Source of the DNA: Clostridia bacterium
Lineage (GTDB): Bacteria; Bacillota; Clostridia; UBA1212; UBA1255
Direction of reading: 5' to 3'
Assembly (NCBI GenBank): GCA_016287565.1
Contig: JAEFAM010000008.1
Span: 1 to 52,084 of the forward strand
DNA length: 52,084 bases
Made by a program: the position numbers and the translations under genes. Positions 11,571 to 48,311 of the stretch are shown here, one piece after another. How positions within the stretch are numbered: the first letter of the stretch is position 1; the number at the start of each line of letters is the position of its first letter. The notes below the pieces were generated by a model. It ran no database searches, was not told the origin of the DNA, and saw only the letters and a list, made by a program, of their open reading frames with translations.

Positions 11571-11582
11571 TTCTCCTTATCA

Positions 11583-11800
11583 AGCTAAATTCGTCCTGCG
11601 GACGAGCTAAATTGACCTTCGGTCAGCTAAATTCGCGCTGGCACGCGAGCTAAATTGCCGCTTTTCGCGGCAGCTAAATTCGTCCTTCGGACGAGCTAAA
11701 TTGACCTTCGGTCAGCTAAATTCGCGCTGGCGTGCGAGCTAAATTGCCGCTTACAGCGGCAGCTAAATTCGTCCTGCGGACGAGCTAAATTGACCTTTGA
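11583..11800. repeat. Hairpin array with AGCTAAATT spacers
   Basis: Ten copies of AGCTAAATT separate short perfect or near-perfect inverted repeats. Four stem types recur in fixed order: CGTCC/GGACG, GACC/GGTC, CGCGC/GCGCG-like, GCCGC/GCGGC. The set runs twice in full and starts a third time. Higher-order period is about 89-98 bp. Loops differ between copies (CTGCG versus CTTCG, CTTTTCG versus CTTACAG) while stems stay paired, including one compensated pair (GCACGCG versus GCGTGCG). The array fills the gap between the isomerase start and the rpmB terminator. It is not a CRISPR: the spacers are constant and the repeats are the hairpins. Confidence 0.9.
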
Positions 11801-34740: not shown

Positions 34741-35110
34741 TCACTTTCTCGCTCATTTTGAGCCTTCGGGCAGAGCGTCCTTCTTTCAAACGCCAAGAAT
34801 CAAGGGGGTAAGTGGTAAATTCTGGGCGTTTCTTGCTCATTTTTTGTTGTCGGGCGGTGCAGCTTCATTCCAAACGCCAAGAAATCCGAGTTAAGGGGCA
34901 AATTCTGGGTGTTTCTCGCTCGTTTGCGGCTTCAGAGGCAGCTCCGCTTCTTCCAAAACGCCCAGAAAATTGAGACAAACGGCAAAAAATGGGTGTTTCT
35001 CGCTCTTCGCAGTTTCAGAGACAGCGCCGCCTCTCCCAAAACGCCCAAAAAATCGAGACAGACGGCAAAATATGGGCGTTTCTCGCTCGGCTCGCCTTTC
35101 GAGACAGAGC
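34741..35110. repeat. Tandem array of 82-84-nt hairpin-plus-linker units (locus 1)
   Basis: Four hairpins of about 44 nt begin at 34788, 34872, 34956 and 35038 with AAACGCC and close with GGCGTTT or GGTGTTT. Each is followed by CTCGCTC or TTGCTCAT and a linker of about 40 nt rich in GCTTC, CAGAG and CTCC. An extra linker copy precedes the first hairpin. Period is 84, 84 and 82 nt. The region has no convincing coding potential; open frames across it change with repeat phase. Confidence 0.85.
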
Positions 35111-35142: not shown

Positions 35143-35394
35143 GCTGCCGCATCGCGGCAATTTAGCTGAATCCTGACAGCTCGAATGTATCGGACCGTCA
35201 GGGTTCAACATCACTCGCCGCAGGCGAATCTCACTCGTGCGTCAGCACGAACATCACTCCGCGAAGCGGAATATCACTGCGCTCCAGCGCAATCTCACTC
35301 GCCGCAGGCGAATCTCACTCGTGCGTCAGCACGAATCTCACTCGCCGCAGACGAATATCACTGCGCTCCGGCGCGAATCTCACTCCCGTAACGA
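35143..35394. repeat. Hairpin array, AATTTAGCT then ATATCAC/ATCTCAC spacers
   Basis: It begins with TGCCGCATCGCGGCA plus ATTTAGCT (the complement orientation of the 34.5-kb spacer) and a long imperfect stem at 35170-35206. Eight hairpins follow, separated by AATATCAC, AATCTCAC or AACATCAC. Stem order is CGCCG, CGTGCG, CCGCG, GCGCTC, CGCCG, CGTGCG, CGCCG, GCGCTC. All hairpins start with T and end with A or G. The array stops at the LD-carboxypeptidase stop codon. Confidence 0.87.
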
Positions 35395-37491: not shown

Positions 37492-37668
37492 TTCGTCCGC
37501 GCTCCTTCCGGTATCGATCTCGGTCAAATTATAGCTTATTCGCCGCGGCCGTTTCAAGCGGTGGCGCGATGGCGGTCAAAGAGTCCGGGCTGTGGCGGCC
37601 CATGCGTTCGCCTGCCGTGGATCCGGGCGGCCGTGCGCTGCCTTGAAGCTTAAAATCGGCGCGAAATA

Positions 37669-37826
37669 AATCACTGCGCGCCAGCGCAATATCACTCCGC
37701 GCAGCGGAATATCACTCGTGCGCCGGCACGAATTTAGCTGCCGCAACGTGGCAATTTCGCTCGGCGCAGCCGAATTTAGCTGAACACTGACAATCTTGCT
37801 TAATAGTCAGTGTTCAATTTAGCTGC
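37669..37826. repeat. Composite hairpin array joining ATATCAC and ATTTAGC spacers
   Basis: Six hairpins in order: TGCGC/GCGCA, TCCGC/GCGGA, TCGTGC/GCACGA, TGCCGC/GTGGCA, TCGGC/GCCGA and a long TGAACACTGAC stem at 37781-37817. Spacers switch from ATATCAC to ATTTAGC (once ATTTCGC). The first three stems match those of the 35.2-kb array. The flanking DNA (37558-37668) shows nothing recognisable. Confidence 0.87.
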
Positions 37827-45787: not shown

Positions 45788-45944
45788 GAAATGGCAAATG
45801 GCAAATTGAAAATGGCAAATGGCAAATGGCAAATTGAAAATGGCAAATGGCAAATGGCAAATGGCAAATTGAAAATGGCAAATGGCAAATGGCAAATTGA
45901 AAATGGCAAATGGCAAATTGCAAGTTGAAAGCGATAAATTGGAT
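45788..45944 (+). repeat. Left block of AATGGCA heptamer repeats beside the four-helix-bundle gene
   Basis: AATGGCA heptamers occur in runs of two to four, each run closed by AATTGAA. The pattern decays into AATTGCAAGTTGAAAGCG toward the gene. It begins directly after the DUF362 stop codon. The right block (46440-46530) carries the complementary sequence in opposite orientation. Confidence 0.88.
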
Positions 45945-46375: not shown

Positions 46376-46530
46376 AAAAATTGCAAATTGCAAATTGAAA
46401 ATTGAAAGATAAGAATTGCAAATTGAGAATGAGAAAAGGAAATCATCATTTCCCATTTACCATTTCCAATTTGCCATTTCCCATTTGCCACTTGCCATTT
46501 GCCATTTCCCATTTGCAATTTGCCATTTAT
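46376..46530 (-). repeat. Right block of repeats, inverted relative to the left block
   Basis: AATTGCA/AATTGAA units (46376-46426) are followed from 46450 by TGCCATT heptamers and TCCCATT variants, the complement of the left-hand AATGGCA units. It stops 20 bp before the trmL start. Repeated TTGCCA hexamers near TATAAA (46527-46532) could supply a trmL promoter (weak inference). Confidence 0.83.
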
Positions 46531-46550: not shown

Positions 46551-47054
46551 ATGTTTCGTGGGTTAAACATTGTGCTTGTGGAGCCGGAGATACCTCAGAA
46601 TACGGGAAACATTGCCAGGACCTGCGCCTGCACCGGTTCCCACCTTCATCTGGTGAGGCCTTTGGGCTTCGAGATAGACGACAGGAAATTGAAGCGCGCC
46701 GGACTGGACTACTGGGACCGGCTGGATATAACTTATTACGACTGCTTCGAAGACGTGCTTGAAAAAGCGGGTGAGGGAAGCAGGTTCTTCCTTTTTACCA
46801 CCAAGGCCAAACGGAGATATTCGGACCAGGCGTTCAGGGACGGCGACTATCTGGTGTTCGGCAAGGAGACTCACGGGCTTCCGGAGCCGCTGCTCAGGGC
46901 GAATTATGAAAAATGCCTCCGCATTCCCATGGGAGGCGAACTGAGATCTTTAAACCTCAGCAATTCGGTGGCGATCGCTGTGTACGAGGCGCTGCGCCAG
47001 CTGGATTTTGAAGGGCTGGAGTCGGAGGGCCATCTCACCGGAAGACCGGATTGA
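46551..47054 (+). CDS. trmL: tRNA (cytidine(34)-2'-O)-methyltransferase TrmL
   Basis: 167 aa SPOUT methyltransferase that 2'-O-methylates the wobble base of tRNA-Leu species. Motifs: LVEPEIPQNTGNIARTC, LVFGKETHGLPE and IPMGGELRSLNLSNSVAIAVYE, the last forming the trefoil knot. RBS CGGAGTG. It stands alone between the four-helix-bundle element and a long repeat region. Its C-terminus extends about 10 residues past the usual end. Confidence 0.95.
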   Translation: MFRGLNIVLVEPEIPQNTGNIARTCACTGSHLHLVRPLGFEIDDRKLKRAGLDYWDRLDITYYDCFEDVLEKAGEGSRFFLFTTKAKRRYSDQAFRDGDYLVFGKETHGLPEPLLRANYEKCLRIPMGGELRSLNLSNSVAIAVYEALRQLDFEGLESEGHLTGRPD

Positions 47055-47189
47055 CGTTGATTGTCGTATTTATTCAATGTCCATATTAGGCTCTTTTCAT
47101 GATACCGTCAGAAATGGTCCTGGACGATCACGGATAATGCGAAAGTTTTTTATAATAGGGTTCCTTTCAACATAATCAATGGGACGAAA

Positions 47190-47660
47190 GAATTGAAATT
47201 CGAGGGGAATGAAGGAATTCGGTCAAAATTCTCGAAGCCTATGCTCATTTCTTTCAAAGTGATGGAGCTAAGAAATTTGAATTCGAGGGAAACAAAGGAT
47301 ATCGTTAAAAATCCCTGAAGCTTGTGTTCATTTCAAGCAGATCAAAGGAACTCAAGACATTGAATTTCGAGGGAATTCACAAAAGCATCGATAATCCTTG
47401 CTTTTTTTGCTCGTTCCAATTACTAGTGCGGCTTCTGCTTCAAGAAATGAGCCTGACAGACGGCGCACGCTTCATTTTTTTCGAGGGAAAAACGCAGAAC
47501 CTTTAGAAATCCTCGAAGTTTGAGCATCCCGCAAAAAACAGGCAGCGCACGCTCCGTTAAGTTTCGAGGGAATTGTAAACATCTGTAAAAATCCTTGAAA
47601 TTAAAGCTCATTCGACCTCCGCGAGCAGAACAAAACGCCGCTCCTCAGAGCCAAATGAAA
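47190..47660. repeat. Tandem array of hairpin-plus-linker units (locus 2)
   Basis: Five hairpins begin with TTCGAGGG at 47199, 47282, 47366, 47480 and 47562 and close with CTCGAA, CCTGAA or CCTTGAA about 38 nt later. After each comes GCTCATTTC, GTTCATTTC, GCTCGTTCC or similar and a linker. Period is 83, 84, 114 and 82 nt; the third unit carries about 30 extra nt. Period and GCTCATTT linker match the array at 34.7 kb although the stem sequences differ. No gene is seen between 47055 and 47747. Confidence 0.85.
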
Positions 47661-47677
47661 AAACGAGCGATAAACAC

Positions 47678-47710
47678 ACAAATGCGAAAACATGGCGTCT
47701 TCGCATTTGT
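47678..47710. terminator. Strong 11-bp hairpin after gtrA, possible terminator
   Basis: ACAAATGCGAA and TTCGCATTTGT pair perfectly around an 11-nt loop. It lies 38 bp downstream of the gtrA stop (minus strand) and at the end of the repeat array. No clear U tract follows on either strand, so function is uncertain. Confidence 0.45.
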
Positions 47711-47747
47711 AATTATCGGTATCAGTTAAAGAACTCTTTATTATAGT

Positions 47748-48311
47748 TTACTCGTTATTTCCGCTTTCGGCGTTATCGGTCTCGGCGACGGCGTCCGGAG
47801 CGGTTTCTGAATTGACCGGCAGAGCTTCATCGGAAGCGGCCGGTTTTTTCTTGCTGTACAGCAATATCTTGCGCATTCCGAAATTCCACACGAACACGAT
47901 CACGGTAGCCACGCATTTGCCCAGGATGTAATATTTGTCCTCCGGGAACCAACTCCCCAGCGCCTGCTTCGGGCCCAGCACGGAATCGAAAAAGTAGATG
48001 ATCAGATTGTTCAATCCCAGCCCGATCACGCTGATTATTGTAAATACGGTAAATTCCGCCACTCTGGTCTTGGTGTTGAGCCCCCTGAAGGCCCAGAACG
48101 TGGACAGCAGGTAGTTGGTGACAAGGCCCAGTATGAACGCGATGGTGGCGGCAATGACGGTGTGCTCTTTAAGCCCCAGGAACTCCTTCAGGACTATGAG
48201 CGCGACCATATCAGCCACCGTTGCAGCGGCGCCCACGAACAGAGAACGGAAGAACTGCACCTTTCCGTCCTCCGGCGGGTCAACGAACAGTTTTTTCAAT
48301 AACGCTTTCAC
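47748..48311 (-). CDS. GtrA family membrane protein
   Basis: 187 aa with four predicted membrane helices: FFRSLFVGAAATVADMVALIV, VIAATIAFILGLVTNYLL, FTVFTIISVIGLGLNNLII and the segment near 118-140. This is the GtrA fold, linked to translocation of lipid-linked sugars or to wall glycosylation. A Lys-Pro then Glu/Ala-rich tail is cytoplasmic. It starts at a GTG 7 bases after GAGGAG, 16 bp after the M32 gene end, so it is co-transcribed with it. Confidence 0.92.
   Translation of the reverse strand: MKALLKKLFVDPPEDGKVQFFRSLFVGAAATVADMVALIVLKEFLGLKEHTVIAATIAFILGLVTNYLLSTFWAFRGLNTKTRVAEFTVFTIISVIGLGLNNLIIYFFDSVLGPKQALGSWFPEDKYYILGKCVATVIVFVWNFGMRKILLYSKKKPAASDEALPVNSETAPDAVAETDNAESGNNE

Follow-up and report, generated by a model that had tools for sequence, protein, structure and literature searches.

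Within the window, by which we mean the whole 52,084-nucleotide stretch of DNA analysed here, the hairpin array at 47.2 kb is most likely the interior of a 647-bp MITE with ISL3-like ends, as judged from its sequence. The fuller reading, which we hold with moderate confidence, is that of a non-autonomous ISL3-ended DNA transposon (MITE) of 647 bp with a modular interior, whose arms serve as type-specific recognition sites. The interior is a modular array in which a linker of fixed character recurs each 83-84 bp, with an inverted pair of arms between linkers; it would grow and shrink via tandem duplication of units, while an ISL3-family transposase would have moved such elements in trans. The role of the arms is our proposal: as type-specific DNA recognition sites, they would make each stem type the mark of a subfamily served by a separate partner factor, while exchange of the arm pair would create a new subfamily. 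The locus and the sister array of the window are composed as follows.

34749-35110, plus strand: sister array with stem A (AAACGCC..GGCGTTT), linker and period as at 47.2 kb
46551-47054, plus strand: SpoU-type methyltransferase gene, called TrmL
47081-47088, unstranded: left target-site duplication CCATATTA, 6/8 identical to 47736-47743
47089-47114, plus strand: left terminal inverted repeat GGCTCTTTTCATGATACCGTCAGAAA, ISL3-like
47199-47236, plus strand: unit 1, TTCGAGG arm, loop, TTCTCGAA arm
47243-47250, plus strand: linker motif GCTCATTT
47282-47319, plus strand: unit 2, TTCGAGG arm, loop, TCCCTGAA arm (imperfect partner)
47326-47333, plus strand: linker motif GTTCATTT
47366-47401, plus strand: unit 3, TTCGAGG arm, loop, TCCTTGC arm (degenerate)
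47409-47466, plus strand: long linker (114-nt step) with GCTCGTTC (47409) and GACAGACGGCGC (47455)
47480-47517, plus strand: unit 4, TTCGAGG arm, loop, TCCTCGAA arm
47539-47548, plus strand: linker motif CAGGCAGCGC
47563-47599, plus strand: unit 5, TTCGAGG arm, loop, TCCTTGAA arm
47606-47613, plus strand: linker motif GCTCATTC
47710-47735, minus strand: right terminal inverted repeat (reverse complement AGTTCTTTAACTGATACCGATAATTA)
47736-47743, unstranded: right target-site duplication CTTTATTA
47748-48311, minus strand: GtrA-like gene

The array sits between the 3' ends of the TrmL and GtrA-like genes. Its TTCGAGG 5' arms begin at 47199, 47282, 47366, 47480 and 47563, in steps of 83, 84, 114 and 83 nt, which bears out the five hairpins and the spacings of the original prediction, with a last step of 83 instead of 82; on the plus strand of the window this 7-mer occurs ten times, five of the copies being these arms. 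The stem had also been described as homogeneous within the locus, which holds for the 5' arm and fails for the 3' arms, these reading, from unit 1 to unit 5, TTCTCGAA, TCCCTGAA, TCCTTGC, TCCTCGAA and TCCTTGAA. The linker motifs are of the GCTCATTT or the GACAGCGC type. As the array at 34.7 kb has a period of 83-84 and the linkers GCTCATTT and GAGACAGCGC (the GCTCATTT and GACAGCGC motifs being both present), it is confirmed that the two arrays have period and linker in common while their stems are unrelated.

Regarding its extent, the locus had been placed at 47190-47660, which proved too small, since paired inverted repeats at its ends, together with an imperfect duplication of the target, carry it out to 47089-47735. 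The bounds of this copy (contig C49) are the inverted repeats GGCTCTTTTCATGATACCG and AGTTCTTTAACTGATACCG, the right one being placed at the end of the terminal-repeat match. ISL3 elements make 8-bp target duplications. Among the arrays with the same stem (type B) in the own genome, the 8-bp flanks match at 6/8 positions for the window copy (CCATATTA/CTTTATTA), 6/8 for C56 and 7/8 for C82, and a fourth complete element, L260 in genus-mate G004, has TTATGCAA/TTTTTCAA at 6/8; the duplications are hence imperfect in all four complete elements, the chance of six or more matches between random 8-mers being about 0.004 for each (binomial, calculated by hand). An exact pattern for ISL3-like ends, written after some of these ends had been seen, matched next to 12 of the 71 array rows (at least one end), distributed as 1/16 for stem type B, 0/17 for A, 4/16 for D, 1/6 for G, 5/7 for H and 1/9 for E, and had no match on either strand of the 52-kb window; paired ISL3-like ends occur at only 3 of the 16 B arrays. 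An ISL3 transposase (PF01610, E 5.7e-63) is encoded in G004, where GGCTCTACTCC adjoins its gene; the ends at H and E arrays begin likewise, and the ends of this G004 element and those of the arrays are similar, not identical. The search of the own genome, whose assembly is 95.85% complete, yielded no ISL3 transposase. Support for ISL3-like movement thus extends to the window copy and a number of others, but not to every array; indeed, with no ISL3-like ends at A-stem arrays, the spread of the A subfamily is not covered by an ISL3-type explanation.

The insertion site was compared between relatives. In G002 and G005, the TrmL and GtrA genes are convergent and nearly contiguous, and in L087 (JAGADO010000065.1, water buffalo rumen) GtrA nearly abuts TrmL too. 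Near TrmL, the six genus-mates have at most one or two isolated short matches to the array motifs, the comparison consisting of motif counts only for G006 and G003. With hardly any intergenic DNA there in these element-less relatives, the site does not amount to a clean pre-insertion site.

The own genome is that of a gut bacterium and comprises 2.65 Mb in 143 contigs. Used as a query there, the 47.2-kb array matches 20 places, including itself and two near full-length relatives, C56 (E 1.8e-61) and C82 (E 9.7e-50), the others being shorter, and the 34.7-kb array matches 30 places, itself included. With two near full-length relatives of the one and 29 further places for the other, these arrays repeat more than expected by chance. 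A third query, from a B array on C138, matches 39 places, many of them loci already found. The TTCGAGG-type stem (B) is present at 16 loci of this genome and the AAACGCC stem (A) at at least 17. Of 16 family genomes, four contain units that match a model of the A and C types, namely the own genome (about 77 units), G004 (25), G005 (10) and G001 (1), and a linker-only model has matches in 5 of 31 order genomes, with 58 matches in the own genome, 57 in G004, 26 in G005, 10 in G001 and 3, all weak (best E 0.001), in G003. The linker is therefore present in 5 of the 7 genus genomes (4 of 6 genus-mates, three of them clearly), accompanied by other stems in the genus-mates, and the same model has no match in the 24 genomes outside the genus. 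Viral contigs had no match in a scan with the exact linker pattern, nor did similarity searches of plasmids with the window element and of phages with the A array. A pattern demanding both linker motifs had no match in the own genome, which we read as an over-strict pattern. The family is accordingly dispersed, intergenic and gene-free, and restricted to the genus among the genomes searched.

That it is one repeat family with constant linker and period and several unrelated stems is supported by nine stem types across three genomes, which were read by eye from the loci and then used in scripts.

Type A, own genome: AAACGCCCA
Type B, own genome: TTTCGAGGGA
Type C, own genome: AAATACATAA
Type D, G004 and G001: AACACCGCCTGAA
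Type E, G005: GTCTAACAAAA
Type F, G005: AATAAACAAA
Type G, G004 and G001: AAATGGGACAAAA
Type H, G004 and G001: GAGACATACCAAA
Type I, G004: CTGGCACACAAA

In G003, GTCATAGCAA- and GTCTAGCAAAA-like arms stand beside weak linkers. The linker consensus is CGCTCATTTT-N-GAGAC(A/G)GCGCC, and the arms of a pair are separated by about 15-25 nt. Across the nine stem types and three genomes, the distance between neighbouring hairpins is 82-84 nt in 105 of 118 cases (108 of 121 when the 34.7-kb array, with its three distances, is entered twice), and the period stays at 83-84 though arm, loop and linker lengths vary by type and the number of units varies from array to array. Arithmetically, 84 bp correspond to about eight turns of B-DNA. 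Two side observations concern the stems: L052 (contig C121 of the own genome, about 1430-1490) carries a unit with a further stem, GAGAATAAA..TTTATTCTC, directly 5' of a TTCGAGGG unit and a GACAGCGC linker, and many 5' arms of stems E to I, as well as the GTCTAGCAAAA arms of G003 (L268, L269), have a CAAA(A) loop-side end with a differing outer part, which may be a shared apical motif.

The original prediction explained uniform stems by local homogenisation of a stem chosen per locus. It is at odds with this that the main stem types are each found at numerous unlinked loci of a genome and that, while neighbouring hairpins have a common stem type in 111 of 121 cases (34.7-kb array entered twice), single arrays do mix stem types, namely A+C at L024, L025 and L034, E+F at L217 and L219, D+I at L211 and L214 and, by eye, G+D at L257. 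Homogenisation would moreover leave loop and linker as uniform as the stem. As units picked by their arms would bias a test of arm conservation, we used 59 A-type units picked by their linker, from loci that originate from similarity to the A array and with two non-family and four C-stem rows excluded. Compared pairwise between loci, the two arms have a mean identity of 0.974 and 0.908 (97% and 91%), the linker core 0.741 (74%), the loop 0.647 (65%) and the remaining linker 0.510, making the arms the best-conserved part within the best-sampled stem type. Arms that are uniform across loci whose loops have diverged are not explained by homogenisation of whole units. As to the idea that the stem might track the neighbouring gene, no link between stem type and gene orientation was apparent. 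The stem may still serve in recognition, genome-wide and per type instead of per locus.

A further point comes from the 16 B arrays. Units 5' of a CTCATTT linker have the 3' arm CCCTGA in 14 cases and CTCGA in 3, whereas those 5' of a GACAGCGC linker have CTCGA in 11 cases and CCCTGA in none, 27 of the 60 units being unclassifiable by the script. As these 3' arms are specific to position, sequence rather than complementarity as such appears to be kept in the arms. This bears on the view of the arrays as transcribed structured RNAs (an sRNA, a sponge or a processed hairpin array) in which the hairpin is selected and not its sequence, since the 3' arms conserved in B-type units lack full complementarity to their partners. 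Arm pairing does persist while the sequence changes completely between types, and in C-type units four of the eight stem pairs have changed on both sides, as such an RNA would have it. Against it, the 47.2-kb and 34.7-kb arrays fold no better than shuffled sequences (z -0.15 for both), the five single hairpins reach z -0.49 to -1.98, and G-T is not preferred over A-C at arm mismatches (37 versus 54, on arm-picked units, a biased test). Neither array matches an Rfam family at E values up to 1, and terminators and promoters in both arrays are near chance level. Orientation relative to genes is mixed, the upstream gene lying on the array strand in 11/19 (A) and 8/15 (B) cases and the downstream gene in 10/17 (A) and 11/15 (B), counts in which C68 is wrongly oriented and C107 and C131x, anchored on a single arm match, are unreliable. 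We lean towards arms acting at the DNA level and judge a structured RNA doubtful.

The arrays might also be neutral, locally homogenised, satellite-like repeats carried on transposons, functionless and with stems drifting by compensatory change, which we consider unlikely: the variable number of units fits, and so do the GTCTAACAAAA (G005) and GTCTAGCAAAA (G003) arms, one change apart as drift expects, whereas arms kept between loci in units whose loops and linkers diverge, and a period of 83-84 held over differing arm and loop lengths, do not. REP/BIME-type palindromes mobilised by a RAYT (Y1) transposase seem highly improbable to us. Although the repeats are palindromic, intergenic and tandem and Y1_Tnp genes occur in 5 of the 7 genus genomes, with three in the own genome, G002 has three of these genes and no array match while G005, only 70% complete, has none and 26 linker matches; furthermore, arms about 15-25 nt apart are unlike the compact REP hairpin, which bears a GTAG or CGTC tag. 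In a last reading, the linker would duplicate the transposon end inside the element, and the arms would be a swappable specificity tag. The end would recur within the element at intervals of eight helical turns, with a type-specific pair of binding sites before each copy; for each type, a single lineage of transposases or a single host factor could act on any unit, and a swap of the tag would give new subfamilies. The likeness of linker to transposon end is strong against shuffles, yet against 4619 real GGC-anchored segments the H linker alone is exceptional, in two of 20 comparisons (p 0.0006 and 0.006), the other linkers giving p 0.03-0.8. With one strong comparison and several weak ones, we treat this likeness as a lead only and give the reading a low probability.

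A CRISPR-like array was also considered and rejected, the inserts being the same palindrome at many loci and not unique spacers.

Other repeats were noted as well. Short-hairpin arrays with a constant 9-nt linker (AATATCACT or AATTTAGCT), varying stems and a step of about 20 nt, parts of which match Rfam Gut-1 (RF01706), form a second family of fixed linker and varying stem in the own genome. Of the A-stem arrays, 13/18 lie in or beside such AATATCACT/AATTTAGCT-linker arrays, versus 3/16 of the B-stem arrays, and repeats nested in repeats are seen with A stems, e.g., at L027, L032 and L036. In the window, heptanucleotide arrays are also present, two of which face each other, CATTTGC being the reverse complement of a rotation of AAATGGC.

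11582-11749, plus strand: short-hairpin array
35203-35363, minus strand: short-hairpin array
37663-37740, minus strand: short-hairpin array
45789-45923: heptanucleotide tandem array, AAATGGC x19
46377-46430: heptanucleotide tandem array, AAAATTG x8
46447-46528: heptanucleotide tandem array, CATTTGC x12

In this family linker and step are fixed, while the whole palindromic arm pair is exchanged from one close species to the next and in places even from one unit to its neighbour. The arrays represent a natural experiment on the replacement of recognition sites of transposons or proteins, and their comparison across related species could show which part of the repeat is read by which factor and how the arms are renewed in step.

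Finally, literature searches returned no description of these arrays, and several known systems resemble them in part. ISL3-type MITEs have GGCTCT-type terminal inverted repeats, an 8-bp target duplication and no gene. The type of end, the 8-bp duplication, the lack of genes and the ISL3 transposase of a genus-mate are in keeping with such elements, while the stem-typed tandem interior, the majority of arrays without visible ends and the failure to detect a transposase in the own genome set the present family apart. The Gut-1 RNA (RF01706), matched by neighbouring short-hairpin arrays of the same genome, also combines a constant linker with varying stems, but has a step of about 20 nt and another linker, and the 83-nt arrays do not match its model. 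REP/BIME repeats, as far as the account in PMC3733652 goes, are likewise many-copy intergenic palindromes with several types per genome, whereas here the arms are far apart and the arrays have no tie to Y1 genes. Among insertion sequences, IS1272 is characterised in one account as inverted-repeat-replacing (PMC5678879). The closest known kind is that of BOX-like modular repeats. BOX elements, known from Streptococcus pneumoniae and S. suis, have end modules, a variable tandem inner module and several module sets per genus (PMC3049150). They are, like the present family, dispersed intergenic composite repeats with fixed ends and a variable count of self-folding tandem inner modules, and BOX-like ordered modules are present here in the B arrays, with their position-specific 3' arms and linkers and varying unit number. 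Compared with that description of BOX (PMC3049150), the arrays differ by a constant linker, interchangeable arms and a fixed 83-84-bp step, and by the ISL3-like ends and target duplications found at some copies.
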